A stretch of 38,727 bases of DNA, taken from Candidatus Aquitaenariimonas noxiae (GTDB lineage Bacteria > Omnitrophota > Gorgyraeia > Aquitaenariimonadales > Aquitaenariimonadaceae). The DNA lies in assembly GCA_002780005.1 (NCBI GenBank), contig PEWV01000041.1, positions 1 to 38,727 on the forward strand, in the 5' to 3' direction. Position numbers and translations under genes: made by a program. Positions 7,934 through 32,529 of this stretch are shown piece after piece; the stretch's first letter is position 1; each line of letters starts with the position of its first letter. Under the pieces are notes generated by a model. That model had not been told where the DNA came from. It saw only the letters and a program-made list of their open reading frames with translations, and did not search any database.

Positions 7934-7958
7934 TTATACACTCTTTAACATATTGCTT

Positions 7959-8124
7959 TGTATAGGCGCTCGAGAGAGCTTAATAGGGAATTCCGGTCAT
8001 AAACGGAAACGGTCCCGCCGCTGTAGAGGATGACGAAATTCGAAAGTAGCCATTATCCTGAAGATCCAGGGTGAGAAGGCGCGAAGAGTAGGTTGATTCC
8101 TTAGTCAGAAGACCTGCCTATATA
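7959..8124 (+). promoter_or_regulatory. cobalamin riboswitch upstream of btuF
   Basis: The ends close as a perfect P1 stem, TATAGGC (7961-7967) with GCCTATA (8116-8122). Inside are the core elements of the large adenosylcobalamin class: AATAGGGAA, GGTCCCGCCGCTGTA, GAGAAGGCGCGAAGAG, and the 3' B12-box-like AGTCAGAAGACCTGCC. The terminator at 8179-8208 lies between the aptamer and btuF, so B12 binding should cause premature termination. The downstream genes all concern B12 uptake and salvage. Confidence 0.92.
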
Positions 8125-8178
8125 TGAATGATGTCGCCAGAACATCAATGTAGGGTTTTCAGTAGAACAGGGAACTGA

Positions 8179-14410: not shown

Positions 14411-14427
14411 GTTTTTCGTATTAAAAA

Positions 14428-14522
14428 CCGGATAGGTGGAGGAAGTCCCGGTGCAATTCCGGGCGCTGTCCCGCAACGGTAAGCCTTATAGAGGCAAGTC
14501 CGGTCGACCACCTGTTCAGGTA
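14428..14522 (+). promoter_or_regulatory. second cobalamin riboswitch, upstream of btuB
   Basis: Compact aptamer with GTCCCGGTGCAATTCCGGG, GCTGTCCCGCAACGGTAA and the 3' element AAGTCCGGTCGACCACCTG. AGGTGG (14434-14439) pairs with CCACCT (14508-14513). No promoter was found between the preceding stop and the aptamer, and no terminator follows. The btuB ribosome binding site GGAGG (14532-14536) lies between CTCT (14527-14530) and AGAG (14538-14541), so translational control is likely. It is shorter than the first riboswitch and differs from it in peripheral helices. Confidence 0.88.
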
Positions 14523-14544
14523 AGTACTCTCGGAGGAAGAGAAA

Positions 14545-16389
14545 ATGAGAAATTTTATCAGAAAATTATTGATTTTATCATATTTTATTTCAGTTGTTTC
14601 TTCAAATGTATTTGCAGAAGATGTTGAGTTGAGCAAAATTGTGGTAACCGCTTCCAGGGTGGAGGAGAAAAGCTCCGGCGTCGCGAGAAAAATTGATGTA
14701 ATTACAGCCGAAGATATAGAAAGAAGTCAAGCCCAGGATTTAGCGCAGGTTTTGACCGGTCTTACCTCCGTCAATATGAGCGATTATGGCGGCCCGGGTG
14801 CCACAAAAACTATCAGGATGCGGGGTTCAGCCGCAAGCCAGGTCCTGGTTTTAGTGGACGGGAGGCCCATAAATAATCCGCGGGACGGGACAGCGGAATT
14901 AAGCACTATCCCGCTGGGGAATATAAAGAAGATAGAGGTTATGCATGGGCCCGGTTCAAGCCTCTATGGTGCGGGGGCGATGGGCGGGACAGTGAATATC
15001 ATTACCAAGAACCCTCCGAAAGAAAAACAGGAAACAGAACTGACTTCAAGTTTCGGGACTTTCAGGACGTACAACGAAAACTTTTCGCATGGGGCAAGGA
15101 TCTCCAATTTCGGCTATCTTATTACTGGCGGGTATCAAAATTCAGAAGGTTATCGCGCAAATTCTGAATTCGATGCCAAGGATCTGAGCGCCAAACTTGA
15201 ATATGAGTTCAACGATAATAATACTGTAACTCTAAATTCCGGGTTCGACAGGAATAAGCAGGGCGTTCCGGGCAATATCAACGCATCGGACATAGATGAC
15301 AAACAGGTAAATATTAAAAATTTCCAGGATTTAGGCTGGAATTTTGAACCTGATGATACAACGGCATTATCGGTAAGGGCTTATCAGAATTATGACCGGT
15401 TGGAATTTATTGAGAATACCTCCGGTTCGGCATTCGATGCGGCCAACAACAGGGATGCCCATACCACCAAGGCAAGAGGCGGTAATCTCCAGCTAAGTAA
15501 AGAGTTATTTAATTATTATCAGGGCATATTGGGGCTTAGCTACCTGGCCAATTTTAATGACAGCTCGGCTTCGGGAAAGCATGAATACGACGTGCGCGCC
15601 GTATATTTGGAAAACAAATTTGATCTATTCAACGAACGCTTAAAACTGAATTTCGGCTCAAGGCTTGATGATTATTCCAACTTCGGCACTGAAATTAATC
15701 CTTCTTTTAGCCTTCTCTACGCGTTGAGGGATAATGTAAGGTTTCACGGCCTGATAAGCCGGTCTTTCCGGGCACCCACGTTTAACGATCTTTACTGGCC
15801 TGATGAAGGATGGGCCAAGGGTAATCCAGACTTAAGCCCGGAAAAGGGCATCACAGAAGAAATAGGCGTAGAATCGGAGATCAATAAACATCTTACCTCG
15901 GGTATCACGTATTATAGGAGCGACTACAAAGATCTTATTAACTGGGCAGAGAGCTCAGGCGTATGGCAGCCGATGAACGTCAATTCCGCCCTGATCGACG
16001 GCATAGAATTCGAGAATAGGATAAAAATCACGGATAATTGGGGTCTTGACGCTTCTTATACCTATTTGTGTGCTAAGGACGCCGATTCTCATAAATATCT
16101 TATTTATCAGCCGAGGCATAAGGTTGATCTTTCTTTGAAGTATATAACCTCGAACGGTTTTGTCTGTGAACTCAAAGAACAATTTGTCGATAAAAGATTT
16201 CATGATGCCGAGAATTTGACCGAAGTAAAAAAATTCTTTGTTTTAGGATTAAGCGTGTCAAAAAAATTCAAATCCGGGATCACCTGTTTTGCAGCAATAG
16301 ATAATCTCCTGGCCCGGAAGTATCAGGTTATAAAAGATTATCCGATGCCCGGATTTTCCCTGACGAGCGGGTTAAAGGTAGAATTTTAA
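14545..16389 (+). CDS. btuB: TonB-dependent outer-membrane receptor, probable BtuB
   Basis: 614 residues. Signal peptide residues 1-24 (cut after NVFA), then a TonB-box-like stretch ELSKIVVTASR. The plug domain holds VLVLVDGRPINNPRDGTAEL and IKKIEVMHGPGSSLYGAGAM; the barrel follows, with SRSFRAPTFNDLYWP and a C-terminal phenylalanine (LKVEF) typical of outer-membrane insertion. It is normal length for BtuB. The cobalamin riboswitch in front and the preceding salvage genes indicate B12 or a related corrinoid as ligand. TonB, ExbB and ExbD are not in the window. Confidence 0.9.
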   Translation: MRNFIRKLLILSYFISVVSSNVFAEDVELSKIVVTASRVEEKSSGVARKIDVITAEDIERSQAQDLAQVLTGLTSVNMSDYGGPGATKTIRMRGSAASQVLVLVDGRPINNPRDGTAELSTIPLGNIKKIEVMHGPGSSLYGAGAMGGTVNIITKNPPKEKQETELTSSFGTFRTYNENFSHGARISNFGYLITGGYQNSEGYRANSEFDAKDLSAKLEYEFNDNNTVTLNSGFDRNKQGVPGNINASDIDDKQVNIKNFQDLGWNFEPDDTTALSVRAYQNYDRLEFIENTSGSAFDAANNRDAHTTKARGGNLQLSKELFNYYQGILGLSYLANFNDSSASGKHEYDVRAVYLENKFDLFNERLKLNFGSRLDDYSNFGTEINPSFSLLYALRDNVRFHGLISRSFRAPTFNDLYWPDEGWAKGNPDLSPEKGITEEIGVESEINKHLTSGITYYRSDYKDLINWAESSGVWQPMNVNSALIDGIEFENRIKITDNWGLDASYTYLCAKDADSHKYLIYQPRHKVDLSLKYITSNGFVCELKEQFVDKRFHDAENLTEVKKFFVLGLSVSKKFKSGITCFAAIDNLLARKYQVIKDYPMPGFSLTSGLKVEF

Positions 16390-16592: not shown

Positions 16593-18428
16593 ATGGAACA
16601 CCTTAACATTGATTCATTATTTTTATTTGATCCGCTTTCAGCGTTCTTCCTTTGCGTAATTTTTCTTATTTCACTGCCTTCGGCTGTTTATTCTATCGGA
16701 TATCTAAAAGGGGAGAGTTCCGGGTTAAAGACCGCCTTAGCGTGGTTTTTGTTAGTGCTTTTCTTAATATCCATGGGATTGGTCGTATCGGTCAGGAACG
16801 TCTTTGTTTTTCTTATCGCCTGGGAAATCATGTCTTTAGTCTCGTATTTCCTTGTCGTCTTTGATACAAAACATGAAAAATCCATTCAGGCAGGTACTAT
16901 TTATATTGTGATGACGCATATAGGAACGGCGTTTCTGATCGCCGCGTTCCTTATAATGTTTAAATACGCGCATTCGTTTAATTTTGCCGCGATAAAAAGC
17001 GCGTGTTCGCTAATGCCGCCGCAGACCAGGAATATAGTTTTCTTATTTCTCTTAATAGGGTTTGGCACCAAGGCCGGTATAGTGCCTTTGCATATCTGGC
17101 TGCCATATGCCCATCCGCAGGCCCCAAGCCACATTTCCAGCATTATGTCAGGTGTAATGATCAAGACAGCTATATATGGAATAATCCGGTTTGTGATATT
17201 TATTCTCGGCGTAAACTCTTCCTGGTGGGGGGTATTGATACTGATGCTGGCGGTGATCTCCTGTCTCGTAGGAGTTATCTATGCGCTGATGGAGCACGAT
17301 ATTAAAAAACTTCTTGCCTACCATAGTGTGGAAAATATAGGGATCATTCTACTGGGGGTGGGCCTCGCAATGCTCTTCATCAGCATGAATATGCCGTATT
17401 TAGCCGTATTTTCATTGATCGCCGGATTATACCACCTGATCAATCACGCTATTTTTAAGGGCCTTTTATTTTTGTGCGCCGGCGCCGTATATAAAGCTAC
17501 AGAAACGCGTGATATTGAAAAGCTGGGAGGCCTTATTAAAAAAATGCCGCAGACGGCGGTTTATTTTCTATTAGGGGCAATGGCAATTTCCGCATTGCCG
17601 CCTCTGAACGGTTTTGTAAGCGAATGGCTGACCCTGCAGGCGTTCTTTTTAGGCGCGTTCAGCGTAGAAGGCGGGTATAGGCTTTTTTTAGGGCTGTGCG
17701 CGGCGATGCTGGCCCTGACAAGCGGATTAGCCGCGGCCTGTTTTGTAAAGGCCTTTGGAATAACATTTCTGGCGCAGCCACGCAGCCGTTACGCGCAGAA
17801 CGCAAAAGAAGTTTCCTTATCTATGAGGGCAGGGATGTTTTTTCTGTCTTTCCTGATCGTTGTTTTCGGATTAGCTGCCGCTATTATTATAAAATTATTG
17901 GCAAAAGTCGCAAGCGCTGCAACTGGTATCAATACAAGCAGCATGAGTTTTTCTTTGAACAATTTCATATTGAGCCCGCAAGCGGGAAAGGGCGTTTATC
18001 TTTCAACGCCGCTACTGGCCGCTGTATTAGCGACGCTCGGGATTGCCGGTTTCGCTATATATAAGTTGGTTAACAGGGAGAAGGCTGTGATATACAAGAC
18101 CTGGGACTGTGGGTATTACAAGTTAGACTCACGAAATGAATATACGGCGACCACTTTTTCCAAACCTTTCAGGATCGCGTTCAGCTTTTTTCTTTTACCT
18201 TACCGCAAAACGCAGAAGATCAGGGAATCATTTTATCATGTCAAATCCTTCGCGTACGAGACGCACACGACCATGGTTTTCAAAAAATACATATATGAGC
18301 CCATCCTTGGTTTGGTATTTAGATCAGCAAAATTCATGAGAAAGATCCAGCCGGGGAGCATTCATTTATACCTGTCTTATATTTTCGTAACCGTATTGAT
18401 CTTAATAATATTCATGCGCAAATTTTAA
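16593..18428 (+). CDS. HyfB-like proton-translocating membrane subunit
   Basis: A 611-residue protein with many membrane segments, of the NuoL/NuoM/MrpD antiporter-like family. Key parts are AWEIMSLVSYFLVVF with the conserved glutamate, FGTKAGIVPLHIWLPYAHPQ with the lysine and histidine of the ion path, and LLAYHSVENIGIILLG. The C-terminal WDCGYYKLDSRNEYTATTFS is typical of HyfB/HycC rather than NuoL. It should couple electron transfer to ion pumping. First gene of a hyfBCEFGI-like operon. No strong ribosome binding site is visible, but no better start was found. Confidence 0.87.
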   Translation: MEHLNIDSLFLFDPLSAFFLCVIFLISLPSAVYSIGYLKGESSGLKTALAWFLLVLFLISMGLVVSVRNVFVFLIAWEIMSLVSYFLVVFDTKHEKSIQAGTIYIVMTHIGTAFLIAAFLIMFKYAHSFNFAAIKSACSLMPPQTRNIVFLFLLIGFGTKAGIVPLHIWLPYAHPQAPSHISSIMSGVMIKTAIYGIIRFVIFILGVNSSWWGVLILMLAVISCLVGVIYALMEHDIKKLLAYHSVENIGIILLGVGLAMLFISMNMPYLAVFSLIAGLYHLINHAIFKGLLFLCAGAVYKATETRDIEKLGGLIKKMPQTAVYFLLGAMAISALPPLNGFVSEWLTLQAFFLGAFSVEGGYRLFLGLCAAMLALTSGLAAACFVKAFGITFLAQPRSRYAQNAKEVSLSMRAGMFFLSFLIVVFGLAAAIIIKLLAKVASAATGINTSSMSFSLNNFILSPQAGKGVYLSTPLLAAVLATLGIAGFAIYKLVNREKAVIYKTWDCGYYKLDSRNEYTATTFSKPFRIAFSFFLLPYRKTQKIRESFYHVKSFAYETHTTMVFKKYIYEPILGLVFRSAKFMRKIQPGSIHLYLSYIFVTVLILIIFMRKF

Positions 18429-18429
18429 C

Positions 18430-19353
18430 ATGATAAAAATATTGATAATTTTACTGCAATTGATTTTCTTTATAGCGGTTTCGCCGTTTATAAGCGGTGT
18501 GATCACCAAGATAAAGAATAACGCGAGGATGCGTAAAGGGCAAAGCGTTTTTCAGCCGTATTGCAACCTTGTAAAACTTTTTTCTAAAGGCGAGGTGATT
18601 TCAGAAACCTCTTCATGGATATTTAAGGCCGCGCCTTTTATAGTTATTTCTTCTTCGCTGGGAGCGGCTTTATTGATCCCCGTGTTCATATTTTCCGGCC
18701 AGACGTATTATATAGGAGATTTTTTAGCGCTGATATTTATTCTGGCATTAGGCCGTTTTTTCCTAGCGCTTGCGGCCCTTGATACTGCCAGCGCTTTTGG
18801 CGGGATGGGGTCATCGAGAGAAATGTTTATATCAAGCCTTGTCGAGCCTGCCGCCTGCCTTGTGGTTTTTTCCGTCTCTTTACAATTTGGCTCCACCAAT
18901 ATCGCCTCTTTCAGCGGGATGCATCCGGTGTCAATTTCTTCGCTTGTCGCCTCATTTGCCTTGTTTCTTGTCGCGATCGCGGAAACATCGCGCATTCCTG
19001 TCGATAATCAGGAAACCCATCTAGAATTAACCATGGTGCACGAGGCAATGGTCCTGGAATATTCGGGTAAACGCCTCGCGTTAATAGAAATGTCTTCCTA
19101 CATAAAACAGATGATATGGTTTTTCCTTATAGCGCAGATCATTTTTCCGATCGCTGTACCTTGCTCGATCAATACAGCGCAAATCATTCCCTGGTGCTTA
19201 TGGTATCTGGCCAGGATATTTATGATAGCCGGAGCAGTAGCTCTTGCGGAAGTTTCTGTGGCGAAAATGCGCCTTTTCAGGGTGGCAGATTTTCTTAGTT
19301 TTGCGTTTGTATTGGCGATCATCGCGACGATTTGCGCGATTCTGGGGGTTTAA
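18430..19353 (+). CDS. HyfC-like membrane subunit (NuoH family)
   Basis: A 307-residue inner-membrane protein of the complex I subunit 1 family. RMRKGQSVFQPYCNLVKLFSKGEV and the strongly conserved IPVDNQETHLELTMVHEAM, lining the quinone-like cavity in complex I, are clear. It links the hydrophilic module to the membrane arm. It starts 1 bp after the hyfB-like stop and ends 1 bp before the next gene. Confidence 0.9.
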   Translation: MIKILIILLQLIFFIAVSPFISGVITKIKNNARMRKGQSVFQPYCNLVKLFSKGEVISETSSWIFKAAPFIVISSSLGAALLIPVFIFSGQTYYIGDFLALIFILALGRFFLALAALDTASAFGGMGSSREMFISSLVEPAACLVVFSVSLQFGSTNIASFSGMHPVSISSLVASFALFLVAIAETSRIPVDNQETHLELTMVHEAMVLEYSGKRLALIEMSSYIKQMIWFFLIAQIIFPIAVPCSINTAQIIPWCLWYLARIFMIAGAVALAEVSVAKMRLFRVADFLSFAFVLAIIATICAILGV

Positions 19354-19354
19354 T

Positions 19355-19990
19355 ATGCAGGCAATAATTCTATTCGGCGTCTTAGCTTCAACGTATCTAA
19401 TGGTTATCGCGAAACGAACGCCGGCTTTGATCCGTTACTTCCGTTATCAGTCGTTCTTTTTGTTTCTGGCAACTTTTGCCGTAGCGATCGAGGAGCGCCA
19501 AATAGACCTATACATAATTGCGGGGCTCTTGTTTGTCATAAAAGTATGTGCGATACCATATTTTTTAAACCGTATCATAAAAAGAATGAAAGTAAGCGAA
19601 GATCTGGGATTATTTGTTAACGCGCAGTTATCTTTATTATGCGTTTTAGGGTTTACGTATCTTTCGTGGGTTTTTGCCGAACGCATACTTGCCCCGCGTA
19701 ACGAAGCGCAGGCTATTATGCTGGCAGTGGCATTTTTTGTCGTGCTGGCCGGGATGTTCCTCATGGTATTCAGGATGACCGCGCTTGCCCAGATCATAGG
19801 GCTCCTGGTGATGGAAAACGGCTTATTTCTCTTGGCCTCAACGGTTTCGGGAGGTATGCCGTTTTTTGTGGAGATAGCCATATTTTTTGACGTATTCGTA
19901 AGCGTGATCATTATGGGCTTTTTTGTTTATAGGATCAACAAACTGTTTACTCATATTGACGTAAATAAACTCTCGCGTTTAAAAGGTTAA
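19355..19990 (+). CDS. HyfE-like membrane subunit (NuoK-related)
   Basis: 211 residues with about seven membrane segments, starting at ATG 19355 directly after the hyfC-like stop. A longer in-frame extension back to 19244 lies inside the previous gene and is rejected. LLVMENGLFLLA corresponds to the NuoK-like motif with a conserved glutamate, and the fused extra helices make it HyfE-like. It is one of the small ion-path subunits of the complex. Confidence 0.82.
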   Translation: MQAIILFGVLASTYLMVIAKRTPALIRYFRYQSFFLFLATFAVAIEERQIDLYIIAGLLFVIKVCAIPYFLNRIIKRMKVSEDLGLFVNAQLSLLCVLGFTYLSWVFAERILAPRNEAQAIMLAVAFFVVLAGMFLMVFRMTALAQIIGLLVMENGLFLLASTVSGGMPFFVEIAIFFDVFVSVIIMGFFVYRINKLFTHIDVNKLSRLKG

Positions 19991-19998
19991 GGCAAATT

Positions 19999-21456
19999 AT
20001 GCAGATATTTTTTATTCTCGCTATTCCGATCTTCCTGGCGGCAGGAGCTTTCCTTATCGGGAAGCAAAAGATTTTCTGTACGCTTAATGCCATAGGGTAT
20101 CTCGCAGTATTGGTCGCCAGCGTAATGCTTTTAAGAAAAATGGTATTATCGGAGAGCGCCAATTCATATTTCAGTTTTATCTATTTTGATGCTTTAAGCG
20201 CATTTTTTATTTTTGTTATCTCAGTAATTGCTTTTGCAGCTGCGCTTTATTCTATTAGTTACATTAAAAAAGATATAGATAGCGGAGTAATATCCGAGCG
20301 AAAAGCAAAGATCTATTATATTCTCTTTAATTTATTCTGCTTTTCAATGCTTCTTGTTCCGGCAGTAAATAATTTAGGTATGCTTTGGGTTGCCATTGAA
20401 ATGACTACACTTATTTCGGCATTTCTTGTAGGGTTTTACAACAACAAGGAATCGATAGAGGCTGCCTGGAAGTATATCATTATTTGTTCAGTAGGTATAA
20501 TCTTTGCGCTTTTAGGCACGATCCTTTTTTCTTATGCTTTTTCACTTCTGGGAGATGTGAAAAGCTTAAATTGGTCAGACATGGTTGCTAACGCCGGAAG
20601 AATGGATAAAAATATACTAAAGATCGCTTTTATTTTTATCCTGGTCGGCTACGGAACAAAGGCGGGCCTAGCTCCAATGCATACGTGGTTACCCGATGCG
20701 CATAGTCAAGCAGTTGCCCCTATAAGCGCGCTCCTCTCCGGAGTTTTATTAAAGACCGCTATTTATGCTATCTTAAGATTTGGTATTATCACAATCAAGG
20801 GCGTTGGTTTTGCGTATTTTGGCAATCTAATGGTCTTGCTGGGGATAATTTCTCTGGCTATATCTTGCGGTTTTATTTTGGTCCAAAAGGATTTAAAGAG
20901 ATTGCTTGCCTATCATAGCATCGAACATATCGGCATAATTTCAATTGGTTTTGGGATCGGCGGAATCTTGGGGGTAGGAGGCGCTTTACTGCACGTATTC
21001 AATCATGCGGTAACAAAGGCATTGATGTTTTTTGGTGCCGGTAATGTTGTAAATAAATACCGGACACACAATATGCACGTCATACGAGGAGTAATAGGTA
21101 CAATGCCTTTTACTGGATTTATGCTTCTTATGGGAGCCTTTGCTCTTGCAGGTATGCCGCCGTTCTCTATTTTTATAAGTGAAATCTTGATAATATGCGC
21201 CGTTTTTCTTAAAGGATATTATCTGGTGACTTTTTTGTTATTGGGATTTATAGCTATCATTTTCGGTGCAGTCGTGCATCATTTTAGCAAGATCTTATTC
21301 GGCAGTATCCCTAAGGGTATGTCTGTGGTAAAAGAACCATTAAGCGGGAAAATGGCGTTTTTATTTTTATTCGTTCAGATTTGTGCCTTAGGAATTGTGC
21401 TGCCGTTTATTAAAAAGGATTTAATATGGATGGTTCAGAAATTATTTCAGGGATAA
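19999..21456 (+). CDS. HyfF-like proton-translocating membrane subunit
   Basis: A 485-residue protein of the NuoL/M/N antiporter-like family, the second one in this operon. LWVAIEMTTLISAFLVGFYN has the conserved glutamate, GYGTKAGLAPMHTWLPDAHS the ion-path lysine and histidine, and RLLAYHSIEHIGII and VFNHAVTKALMFF follow. The length fits HyfF. The last 31 bp overlap the start of the large-subunit gene. Two antiporter-like subunits suggest more than one ion-pumping unit. Confidence 0.88.
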   Translation: MQIFFILAIPIFLAAGAFLIGKQKIFCTLNAIGYLAVLVASVMLLRKMVLSESANSYFSFIYFDALSAFFIFVISVIAFAAALYSISYIKKDIDSGVISERKAKIYYILFNLFCFSMLLVPAVNNLGMLWVAIEMTTLISAFLVGFYNNKESIEAAWKYIIICSVGIIFALLGTILFSYAFSLLGDVKSLNWSDMVANAGRMDKNILKIAFIFILVGYGTKAGLAPMHTWLPDAHSQAVAPISALLSGVLLKTAIYAILRFGIITIKGVGFAYFGNLMVLLGIISLAISCGFILVQKDLKRLLAYHSIEHIGIISIGFGIGGILGVGGALLHVFNHAVTKALMFFGAGNVVNKYRTHNMHVIRGVIGTMPFTGFMLLMGAFALAGMPPFSIFISEILIICAVFLKGYYLVTFLLLGFIAIIFGAVVHHFSKILFGSIPKGMSVVKEPLSGKMAFLFLFVQICALGIVLPFIKKDLIWMVQKLFQG

Positions 21457-23003
21457 AAACGAAACTGCAGGATTTTAACGCGATTTCAGTCTCGAAGAAT
21501 TATTCAGACGAGATCTGCATAAAAGTGGACCCCCAAGTTTTTAAAGATACATGCCTTGCGCTGCACAAGATCCTTCCTTCTCCGGTAATGATGCTTTTCG
21601 CGCTTGACGAACGCAAGGCGATGGGTAAATTCGTGATCAATGCTGTGTTCGCAAGTTTCAGGAGAAGCCAGTGGGTTATTCTAACTATGGATATTCCGCA
21701 AGAAAACCCTTGCTTTGATTCTCTGGCGAAAAGTATGTATTCAGCTAACCTTTTTGAGCGGGAGATATGGGAAATGTTCGGTATTGAGCCGAAAGGCAAC
21801 CCTGATTTAAGAAGGCTTTATTTACACGACGAGGTCTGGCCTCAGGGAAACTATCCGCTGCGCAAGGATTTTCAAAAAATGAAAGTCGGGAATTTAGGCG
21901 AGTATAAGTTTGGCAGAGTAGAAGGGGAAGGTATTTTTGAAGTTCCGGTCGGACCGGTGCACGCAGGAATAATCGGCCCGGGCCATTTCAGATTCAGCGT
22001 TGCCGGGGAACCGATAATAAATTTAGAGATCAGGTTTGGCTTCACTCATCGCGGTGTGGAAAAGATCTTTGAAGGTAAATCTATTTCTGACGCGATACGT
22101 TTTTCAGAACGCGTATCAGGAGATTCTTCTTTTGCCCACAGTCTTTCTTTCGCCCAGGCGGCAGAAAAAATTTCAGGCATATCGGTCTCTTTGCGTACAG
22201 CCTATCTAAGAGGCATATTTTTAGAACTTGAGCGCATGTATAATCACGCCAACGATGCTGGGGGCATAGCGCTAGATGTCGGTTTTAGCTTTCCGGCTGC
22301 TTATGCCTCGATCATAAAAGAGTCTATTCTGGCATTGAACGAAAAACTTACCGGAAGCAGGTATCTTAAAAATATCAATTCGGTGGGAAGGGTTTCAGTT
22401 GATTTTGACGGCTCCAAAAAATCAATACTTCAGGAGTCTATCGGAAAAATAAAACAGGATTTTGACGAATTGGTCAAAATATTAAATTCCAGCGTTTCTT
22501 TTATGGATAGGGTGGATACCGCCGGCGTCTTAAAGAAAAAGACAGCTTTTGATCTGGGCGTGGTCGGTCTTGCCGGGCGGGCCTCGGGGATCCCGACAGA
22601 TCTAAGAAAATATTTCCCCGGGATCTATAAGGAAGCAAAGTTTAAAATGGTAACGCAGGGAGCAGGAGACGTGCTCGCCAGGCTCAGGGTCAGAATTTTT
22701 GAATTTGAGGAATCATGCCGTCTCATCGAAGAATTTGCCGCAAGGATGCCCGGAGATGAGAAAATCGAAAATGATCCAAAACCAAAGGAAGGGAGCGCTT
22801 TGGGCTATGTAGAAGGATGGAGGGGGCCGGTATTATACTGGCTTAAAACCGACTCCTCAGGTTTGATCGAAAGATGCAAGATCGTGGACCCTTCTTTTCA
22901 TAACTGGCAGGCCCTTTCATACGCTGTATTGGGGAATATTATACCGGATTTTCCGCTTTGCAACAAAAGTTTTGACCTGTCATATTCAGGAAATGACCTA
23001 TGA
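21426..23003 (+). CDS. HyfG/NuoCD-like large subunit lacking all nickel ligands
   Basis: 525 residues. Residues 1-155 are a NuoC domain (FEREIWEMFGI, GNYPLRKDFQ) and residues 175-525 a NiFe large-subunit/NuoD domain (VPVGPVHAGIIGPGHFRF, GFTHRGVEKIFE). In hydrogenases the first nickel motif reads RVCGxC; here it is RVSGDSSFAH, with serines S231 and S234. The second motif, DPCxxC, is DLSYSG, with S519 and G522. All four nickel-binding cysteines are missing, so no NiFe site can form. This is the pattern of energy-converting-hydrogenase-related (Ehr) complexes. The fusion and length are otherwise normal for HyfG/HycE, so this is not a broken gene. ATGA overlap with the next gene. Confidence 0.88.
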   Translation: MDGSEIISGIKTKLQDFNAISVSKNYSDEICIKVDPQVFKDTCLALHKILPSPVMMLFALDERKAMGKFVINAVFASFRRSQWVILTMDIPQENPCFDSLAKSMYSANLFEREIWEMFGIEPKGNPDLRRLYLHDEVWPQGNYPLRKDFQKMKVGNLGEYKFGRVEGEGIFEVPVGPVHAGIIGPGHFRFSVAGEPIINLEIRFGFTHRGVEKIFEGKSISDAIRFSERVSGDSSFAHSLSFAQAAEKISGISVSLRTAYLRGIFLELERMYNHANDAGGIALDVGFSFPAAYASIIKESILALNEKLTGSRYLKNINSVGRVSVDFDGSKKSILQESIGKIKQDFDELVKILNSSVSFMDRVDTAGVLKKKTAFDLGVVGLAGRASGIPTDLRKYFPGIYKEAKFKMVTQGAGDVLARLRVRIFEFEESCRLIEEFAARMPGDEKIENDPKPKEGSALGYVEGWRGPVLYWLKTDSSGLIERCKIVDPSFHNWQALSYAVLGNIIPDFPLCNKSFDLSYSGNDL

Positions 23004-23509
23004 TGTATATACTAAAAAGTAGAATCCTAAAAGGCGTTGTGACTAGACACATTGATCCGAAGCTATCCGGAGAAATAGAATCGGCGGGCCTTGAACTGAA
23101 GTCGTTGATCCGGAAAAAGTTCGCGAGATCCCTCTATATACGCGAAGTGGACACAGGCTCATGCGGAGCCTGCGAATCAGAAATAATTTCAGCCAATAAC
23201 CCTATTTATGATATTCAGAGATTCGGCATCAATTTTGTTGCTTCCCCAAGGCACGCGGACGCCCTTTTAGTAACCGGGCCCGTATCAAAAAATATGCTGG
23301 TCGCCTTGAAAAAAACTTTTGAGGCAATGCCTGAACCGAAATTTGTCATTACCTTAGGAGATTGCGCGTTGAACGGAGGTATTTTTAAAGATTCTTATTA
23401 CATCGAAGGCCCGGTAAAAGATATATTACCTGCCGCGCTGCACATTCCTGGATGCCCACCAACGCCTATGGCAATTATAAAAGCACTATTAGCTTTCTTG
23501 AAAAAATAA
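23000..23509 (+). CDS. HyfI/NuoB-like iron-sulfur small subunit
   Basis: A 169-residue soluble protein with the four cysteines of the proximal 4Fe-4S cluster: C55 and C58 in GSCGACESE, C122 in LGDCALNGG and C152 in IPGCPPTP. It would pass electrons next to the large subunit. The cluster site is intact although the neighbouring subunit has lost nickel binding, which argues for a complex that still carries electrons. No ferredoxin-like HyfA/HyfH/NuoI subunit lies in the window. Confidence 0.88.
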   Translation: MMYILKSRILKGVVTRHIDPKLSGEIESAGLELKSLIRKKFARSLYIREVDTGSCGACESEIISANNPIYDIQRFGINFVASPRHADALLVTGPVSKNMLVALKKTFEAMPEPKFVITLGDCALNGGIFKDSYYIEGPVKDILPAALHIPGCPPTPMAIIKALLAFLKK

Positions 23510-31146: not shown

Positions 31147-32529
31147 ATGGTTAAAAAATTCATAATATTAATAGCGATCGCAGCGGGATTAGGCTTTTTA
31201 ACAAAAAGCATAGGCCTTAATAGCCAGCAGGCGCTGTCTATATCGGTGTTTTCAGCTTCCGTATTGGGAACATTATTCTTTTGGGATTTCAGGTTAAGCT
31301 TTGTTTTTCTCGGCACTTCCGTACTTCTCATAACCCGAACCATTGACCTGGAGCACTTGGTCAGGTACTCATCCCTGGAAGTTATCCTCTTTCTCGTAGG
31401 CATGATGGTTTTGGTCGGGCTATTGAAGGAAAGCGGATTTTTCGCGCTTATTACGCGCCTTTTCTTAGAAATAGAAAATATAACAGGCCGCAAATTCGTA
31501 ATTATAATGTGCGTCGTTTCAGCTCTTTTTTCCGCGACAGTCGATGAAGTTACCTCTATTATATTTATGGTCGCCATCGTGCTTGAGATATGCGATCGCC
31601 TTAAAGTCGATGCGGTGCCGTTTGTTATTATGTCGGTTCTGGCGACTAATGTAGGCAGCGCGGCTACGGTGTTAGGGAACCCCATAGGCGTCTTGATCGC
31701 CTCAAAATCCGGCCTTACCTTCGAAGACTTTATTATTAAATCAGCGCCTATTTGCCTAATTTGTTTGATAGTTGCCGTAATTATAGTGATGGTATGGTAT
31801 AAAAAACCTATCCAACAAATGGATGAGAACATAAAGAAAGCGAAAGCGAAAGGGTTAAAGATTGAGCATCACCCTATAGTTTTCACGCATGATTTAAAGG
31901 TTAGCGTTGGCATATTTATCATTACGTTATTTTTTATATCCTTGCATCGCCGGCTTGAGCTTTTATGGAATCTCCAACCCAATACGATTCTCCTCACCAT
32001 GCCGCTTATATCAAGCGGGATCGCGATGATATGGAAGTGGAGGAATGCCCGTAAGTATATAGAAAAAGATGTAGAGTGGTGGACGCTGTTATTTTTTCTG
32101 CTTCTTTTCGCGCAGGCCGGGACTTTGTGCTATACCGGTGTAACAGATGTATTGGCGAGAAGCCTCACGAACGTTACAGGCACAGGATGGACGTTTCTTA
32201 CGAGCCTTATCATATGGATCGCAGCTATCGGTTCAAGCATTTTAGATAACGTGGTTTTGGTCGCGGCGCTTATACCGGTCATTCAGAGCTTCAAGGCGAT
32301 GGATGTGGTTTTAGAGCCTTTATGGTGGGCGCTTCTTTTGGGAGGGTGTTTCGGCGGCAACATTACGCTTGTCGGATCTACGGCAAATATAGTTGCCTTA
32401 GGCATTTTGGAGAAAGAGCGAAAAGTTCGCATAACATTTATGCGATGGTTCGGCATCGGGTTGACAGTAGGGGTAGTAACCACTGTTATAGCTTGGGCAA
32501 TGCTTTTATTTATTCCGTTTTATCATTAA
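31147..32529 (+). CDS. ArsB/NhaD-type (SLC13 family) ion transporter
   Basis: A 460-residue protein with about eleven membrane helices. FSATVDEVTSIIFM and LATNVGSAATVLGNPIGVLI form the first family repeat; GSSILDNVVLVAALIPV with NITLVGSTANIVALGI forms the second. The ion-transporter superfamily contains ArsB arsenite pumps, NhaD sodium/proton antiporters, P-protein-like and citrate carriers. It stands alone with its own promoter, more than 25 kb from the arsenic operon and not close to it in function, so an antiporter or anion carrier role is as likely as arsenite. The ribosome binding site is weak. Confidence 0.82.
   Translation: MVKKFIILIAIAAGLGFLTKSIGLNSQQALSISVFSASVLGTLFFWDFRLSFVFLGTSVLLITRTIDLEHLVRYSSLEVILFLVGMMVLVGLLKESGFFALITRLFLEIENITGRKFVIIMCVVSALFSATVDEVTSIIFMVAIVLEICDRLKVDAVPFVIMSVLATNVGSAATVLGNPIGVLIASKSGLTFEDFIIKSAPICLICLIVAVIIVMVWYKKPIQQMDENIKKAKAKGLKIEHHPIVFTHDLKVSVGIFIITLFFISLHRRLELLWNLQPNTILLTMPLISSGIAMIWKWRNARKYIEKDVEWWTLLFFLLLFAQAGTLCYTGVTDVLARSLTNVTGTGWTFLTSLIIWIAAIGSSILDNVVLVAALIPVIQSFKAMDVVLEPLWWALLLGGCFGGNITLVGSTANIVALGILEKERKVRITFMRWFGIGLTVGVVTTVIAWAMLLFIPFYH

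Follow-up and report, generated by a model that had tools for sequence, protein, structure and literature searches.

A nickel-free Ehr complex encoded by Candidatus Aquitaenariimonas noxiae and its relatives that lack cluster cysteines

What can a hydrogenase-like membrane complex do once the ligands of its nickel site are gone? This question is raised by an operon of Candidatus Aquitaenariimonas noxiae (Omnitrophota; assembly GCA_002780005.1), located at positions 16593–23509 of contig PEWV01000041.1. The whole stretch analyzed, 38,727 nucleotides from position 1 of the contig, is called the window below. The operon is intact and contains six genes in the order hyfB-C-E-F-G-I, all on the (+) strand, with neighbors that overlap or lie at most 10 bp apart. 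Judged from its sequences, the encoded complex is an Ech-hydrogenase-related (Ehr) complex, a member of an already known family. Genes were named by Pfam and NCBIfam family scans, and genome-wide questions were answered by family searches.

16593..18428 (+): hyfB-like antiporter-like subunit, 611 amino acids (NCBIfam hydrogenase 4 subunit B, E 5.6e-193, below cut-off)
18430..19353 (+): hyfC-like / NuoH-like membrane anchor subunit (Pfam NADHdh, E 4.6e-31)
19355..19990 (+): hyfE-like membrane subunit (NCBIfam hydrogenase 4 membrane subunit, E 2.1e-23, below cut-off)
19999..21456 (+): hyfF-like antiporter-like subunit (NCBIfam hydrogenase 4 subunit F, E 3.4e-144, below cut-off)
21426..23003 (+): hyfG-like large subunit, a NuoC-NuoD fusion (HycE-type) without nickel ligands (alignments, AlphaFold model)
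23000..23509 (+): hyfI-like small subunit, all four [4Fe-4S] cysteines present (Pfam Oxidored_q6, E 1.4e-28)

The six co-directional open reading frames (ORFs) and the family scans agreed with the gene order given by the initial annotation. Because nearly all NCBIfam matches fell below the curated cut-offs, the operon proteins are treated as relatives, not as confirmed equivalogs. Inspection of the translation indicated ATG 19355 as the most likely start of hyfE, rather than the mechanically called TTG 19244.

The lost nickel site and the conserved pump

The large subunit was aligned with Escherichia coli HycE, Pyrococcus furiosus MbhL and Thermus thermophilus Nqo4. It was also aligned with 80 relatives fetched from a genome-collection scan, which had returned at least 580 relatives from many bacterial and archaeal phyla, including nitrifiers; no function is assigned to these widespread complexes in the literature examined. 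Residues S231, S234, S519 and G522 of HyfG sit on the four nickel-cysteine columns, and no cysteine is placed at any of them, as the initial annotation had read. Two paralogues of the same genome (contigs C24 and C26) carry all four cysteines in those columns. The motif S-x-x-(S/T/N/E/M/H) ... S-x-x-G was found in 68 of the 80 fetched relatives and four cysteines in eight. The remaining four were single variants, namely SCSC (L108), CASA (L043), STSA (L060) and L047, which has stops inside and was excluded from the trees. Since the same substitutions occur in relatives from independent assemblies, base errors at the nickel positions are excluded. The relative in the one-contig Omnitrophota genome G054 reads A-G-D-T ... 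S-Y-A-G there.

The position of MbhL E21, which is key to proton reduction in MBH (PMC7684303), is G184 in the window's HyfG; G occurs there in the ten Omnitrophota and Saganbacteria sequences of the window's clade, whereas the other 82 sequences have E. At the positions of His38 and Tyr87 of Nqo4, which form the quinone site of complex I, HyfG has I183 and G232. HyfG ends three residues past the last nickel position, and the same end was seen in all Ehr sequences read and in the nickel-type sister clade. The AlphaFold model of HyfG has a predicted local distance difference test score (pLDDT) of 90, and its best PDB match is HycE of the solved formate hydrogenlyase (7z0s_E), with a template modeling score of 0.93.

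The small subunit retained its cluster ligands. C55, C58, C122 and C152 are all present in an alignment of 62 rows (the window, 58 relatives and three E. coli references), with a hydrogenase-type CxxC and normal spacing, which agrees with the iron-sulfur subunit described initially. Its best PDB matches are MbhJ and HycG.

In the membrane arm, the alignments showed conservation of E78, K160, K191, K238 and E344 in HyfB, of E131, E139, E185, E199 and E210 in HyfC (in all groups), and of E134, K221 and K340 in HyfF. The pump residues and the HyfC glutamates are shared with E. coli Hyf, which supports a pump. The initial annotation had called both antiporter-like subunits intact. This needs one correction: HyfB is about 65 residues shorter at the N-terminus than E. 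coli HyfB (its profile match begins at 75 of 669, and D13 corresponds to D78 of the E. coli protein). The HyfB proteins of the closest relatives are equally short (608–611 amino acids), so the short N-terminus is a trait of the clade and not a defect. Against the nearest relative (HyfG 75% identical), the ratio of nonsynonymous to synonymous differences (pN/pS) was 0.13–0.30 for the six genes, with synonymous sites near saturation; by this measure, all six are under purifying selection.

The complex shares the B-C-E-F-G-I core with E. coli Hyf, and its closest solved large-subunit structure comes from the E. coli Hyc system. In contrast to Hyc and Hyf, it has no nickel cysteines, no HyfA, HyfD or HyfH, and no C-terminal tail. 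Both features of a group 4 [NiFe] hydrogenase of the Hyf or formate hydrogenlyase kind, the two CxxC pairs of the large subunit and a HyfH/HycF subunit, are missing from the operon.

Family placement and the relatives without cluster ligands

The nickel-less large subunits form one clade of 71 rows with an approximate likelihood ratio test (SH-aLRT) value of 97 in a quick tree without bootstrap. Nitrospira moscoviensis and a Geobacter lie inside it, and the nearest relatives of the window protein are other Omnitrophota and Saganbacteria. The sister clade consists of nickel-type complexes, mostly from Bacillota, plus a planctomycete, and E. coli HyfG and HycE fall outside both. The Ehr label of the initial annotation is therefore upheld by the tree placement among genera where Ehr is described, by the absence of NiFe-binding cysteines, and by the presence in one operon of group 4-like large and small subunits with antiporter-like membrane subunits.

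Ehr has been described in about half of Nitrospirales genomes, with function unknown (PMC12342949), in Saganbacteria and Riflemargulisbacteria (PMC6349859) and in ammonia-oxidizing archaea (PMC10432482). In Geobacter, it corresponds to GSU0739-45, whose abundance was higher on formate than under conditions that included hydrogen (PMC7894505). The complexes of Nitrospira (including N. moscoviensis), Geobacter, Saganbacteria and ammonia-oxidizing archaea have the same subunits and the same loss of nickel ligands, and belong to one clade. Compared with other Ehr, the window's clade of Omnitrophota and Saganbacteria differs by G instead of E at position 184, and the window and its nearest relatives by the short HyfB.

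Two observations concern the nickel-type sisters. Their large subunits (L075, L084, L086, L092, L099, L100, L110 and L121) lack the C-terminal extension of HycE, ending three residues past the last nickel cysteine, and no HyfH gene lies nearby. A Desulfosporosinus large subunit inside this clade (L108:4406-5824) reads S-x-x-C ... S-x-x-C; the first cysteine of each nickel pair is gone and the second is kept.

A part of the Ehr family has lost the cluster cysteines as well. Of the 62 small-subunit rows, 53 have all four cysteines and nine read DCDD, TCDD, SEGD or TEGN at these positions. In total, the loss was found in 14 genomes (L060, L061, L063, L065, L076, L085, L093, L106, L115, L117, L137, L138, L139 and L140), with at most one cysteine left. 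Thirteen of these comprise the nine alignment rows, L061, and L137–L139, which were found in the phylum of L063. They lie in one Patescibacteria-rich part of the tree, where support for the deepest grouping is weak; one of them, L085, bears the label Thermoleophilia and may come from a mis-binned contig. L140, which reads D, A, D, N, lost the ligands independently. Two origins of the loss are thus required on the tree, but L140 is a long branch. Its small subunit (L140:9659-10402, (-) strand) is a HyfH-HyfI fusion with an N-terminal ferredoxin-like stretch and a HyfI part without cluster ligands. All other small subunits that could be read, those neither from the Patescibacteria clade nor from L140, keep the four cysteines.

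The remainder of the cluster-less small subunits is conserved, and a model of one resembles MbhJ (pLDDT 80). Their large subunits have the same pocket motif as cluster-bearing Ehr, and HyfB, HyfC and HyfF retain their main charged residues in every group, the cluster-less one included. HyfE E175 is Q in five of the seven cluster-less rows, so coupling there may differ from that of the window complex. F1-ATPase genes immediately precede the Ehr operon, on its strand, in L061, L076, L115 and L117 (identified by Pfam in L076 and L117). An ordinary [4Fe-4S] cluster cannot be bound by a single cysteine or none, so these complexes probably have no redox cofactor. Part of the family apparently consists of complex I-like machines that carry no redox cofactor at all. 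The literature searched, with preprints and most subscription journals outside its scope, yielded no description of an Ehr lacking the cluster, and this is weak evidence of novelty.

Electron supply, ion transport and competing explanations

Among the loci read, only archaeal L064 and L077 and, in fused form, L140 have a HyfH-like ORF beside the operon; the absence of a ferredoxin-like subunit reported for the window is thus typical of the family. The archaeal nickel-less loci carry a two-cluster ferredoxin-like gene between hyfG and hyfI (Pfam run on L064), which shows electron input in part of the family. The initial annotation had suggested looking for HyfH/NuoI-like and hyp maturation genes elsewhere in the genome (G000). 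The two best HyfH/NuoI-like matches lie on contigs C26 and C24, which carry true group 4 hydrogenases, and hyp-like genes adjoin the C24 hydrogenase operon. The C24 and C26 loci (L004 and L005) are two intact group 4 [NiFe] hydrogenase operons; hypF-, hypD- and hypE-like ORFs lie beside the one on C24 and a HycI protease-like ORF beside the one on C26 (named by eye). HypD was not found in 14 of 18 nickel-less genomes searched and was present in both nickel-type genomes and in the L108 genome, an absence that is soft since the genomes are incomplete.

For the window complex, in which the cluster ligands are kept, we favor, at about even confidence, a complex I relative that translocates ions and receives electrons from a soluble carrier of low potential, for example ferredoxin. 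In this mechanism, HyfB, HyfF, HyfC and HyfE would form a membrane pump, topped by a HyfG/HyfI head that lacks nickel and carries a single [4Fe-4S] cluster, and H2 would be neither made nor used. The carrier, reduced ferredoxin or one like it, would dock directly on HyfI and reduce the cluster. Docking without a HyfH adaptor is plausible as the nickel-type sisters also have no HyfH nearby, and three POR-family genes in the genome could supply reduced ferredoxin. The electron would exit to a small molecule that accepts it in what was once the NiFe/quinone pocket, and the resulting charge or conformational change would be relayed by the beta1-beta2 loop and by the glutamates of HyfC, driving H+ or Na+ through HyfB and HyfF. 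The sequences themselves show the subunits, the family membership, the loss of the nickel ligands, the retention of the cluster ligands and the conservation of the pump residues; we infer the direction, the donor, the acceptor, the ion and the redox activity of the cluster in turnover. The original proposal of ion pumping and of electron transfer between unknown partners keeps its conditional standing; redox-coupled ion translocation by Ehr is suspected in the literature.

Three points weigh against the ferredoxin-fed pump. No electron acceptor was identified, the operon and its neighborhood name no donor, and the cluster-less relatives keep pump and pocket, so that the conserved function may not need electrons. 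Clustering of the neighborhoods of 80 loci gave no widely conserved partner gene apart from a regulator cluster of mixed content, present in 23 loci, and, in a few Patescibacteria, subunits of ATP synthase.

The persistence of pump and pocket where the cluster is lost makes a redox-independent ion transporter the strongest rival. Ehr would then be, in essence, a transporter or antiporter (H+/Na+ or H+/K+) and not an electron-transfer enzyme, its head serving as a folded coupling or gating element and the window's cluster as a redox sensor or a structural part; we consider this possible, though rather unlikely. The redox head would be dispensable: the Patescibacteria assembly might work without nickel, Fe-S cluster and quinone site, exchanging or gating H+/Na+ alongside the F-type ATP synthase, and the window complex might be a cluster-bearing, perhaps redox-gated form, a reading to which we give tentative credence at most. 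The loss of the cluster ligands in 14 relatives that conserve the rest of the small subunit, the pocket motif of the large subunit and the charged pump residues shows that electron transfer is not required to keep the rest of the complex, and the placement behind same-strand F1-ATPase genes in four loci points the same way. Precedents are DAB2 (PMC13144422) and Mrp (PMC7419157), in which membrane subunits of the complex I type function with no electron transfer; their head is unrelated or absent, whereas the window complex keeps HyfG and HyfI. The retention of all cluster cysteines in the small subunits read elsewhere in the family and the E175Q change in HyfE of most cluster-less rows argue against the transporter.

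Other explanations fit less well. The P. furiosus MBS, a sulfane sulfur reductase, is a solved nickel-less complex I relative that also lacks equivalents of H38, Y87 and E21 (PMC7684303), and by analogy the proximal cluster might reduce polysulfide or a similar small molecule. However, catalysis in MBS involves a cluster on three cysteines in a shortened motif, and two large-subunit cysteines are kept (PMC7684303), whereas the window's HyfI has four cysteines in the normal CxxC arrangement and its large subunit none at the four positions. Membership in MBS was rejected on these differences in cysteine number, spacing and pairing, and an MBS-type function seems improbable. Formate dehydrogenase as the donor, proposed from gene content for Saganbacteria and Margulisbacteria (PMC6349859), would agree with the greater abundance of the Geobacter subunits on formate. 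It is very unlikely here, since no protein matching Molybdop_Fe4S4 (PF04879) was found in the window's genome (97% complete) or in six of eight other Ehr-bearing genomes of the class, to which the proposal does not fit. Quinone reduction as in complex I or Fpo is suggested by the overall fold and the NuoC-NuoD fusion. Respiratory complex I has a homologous head and membrane arm and likewise no nickel; the Ehr operon differs by having no NuoE/F/G/I, and its small subunit by CxxC instead of the tandem CC. Both quinone-site residues are absent, MqnA/D was not found in the genome (MenD was not searched for), and UbiA matches were weak here and absent in five of eight Patescibacteria genomes with Ehr, so that a quinone is a highly doubtful acceptor. 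The retained hydrogenase fold could also mean that nickel is bound in another way or that the complex is a decaying remnant. With no cysteine at any nickel position, the catalytic Glu lost, no HypD in most nickel-less genomes and purifying selection on all six genes, we give this little credence.

Genome context and significance

Several observations concern the surroundings of the operon. Among 59 genomes of the class, RnfC_N was detected in 3 of the 9 that carry Ehr and in 37 of the 50 others (Fisher p 0.025, which ignores relatedness); replacement of Rnf was considered and not used as proof. CitMHS/ArsB-type permease genes lie near the Ehr operon in three genomes, at 31147-32529 of the window (7.6 kb away), at L141:4229-5536 (adjacent) and at L076:12313-13587. 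The window also contains two cobalamin riboswitches (Rfam; 7947-8135 and 14414-14554), neither of which precedes hyfB. The ORFs after them resemble B12 uptake and salvage genes and a TonB-type receptor (named by eye).

The window complex itself is, from its sequence, a known kind of machine; the cluster-less branch, found partly beside ATP synthase genes, is the wider pattern of interest and deserves its own study. Forms with nickel and cluster, with the cluster only, and with neither make a graded series on one conserved pump; with this series it can be asked directly what the head must contain for ions to be moved in the complex I superfamily. Should the cluster-less forms prove to transport ions, coupling of the complex I type would not depend on electron transfer.

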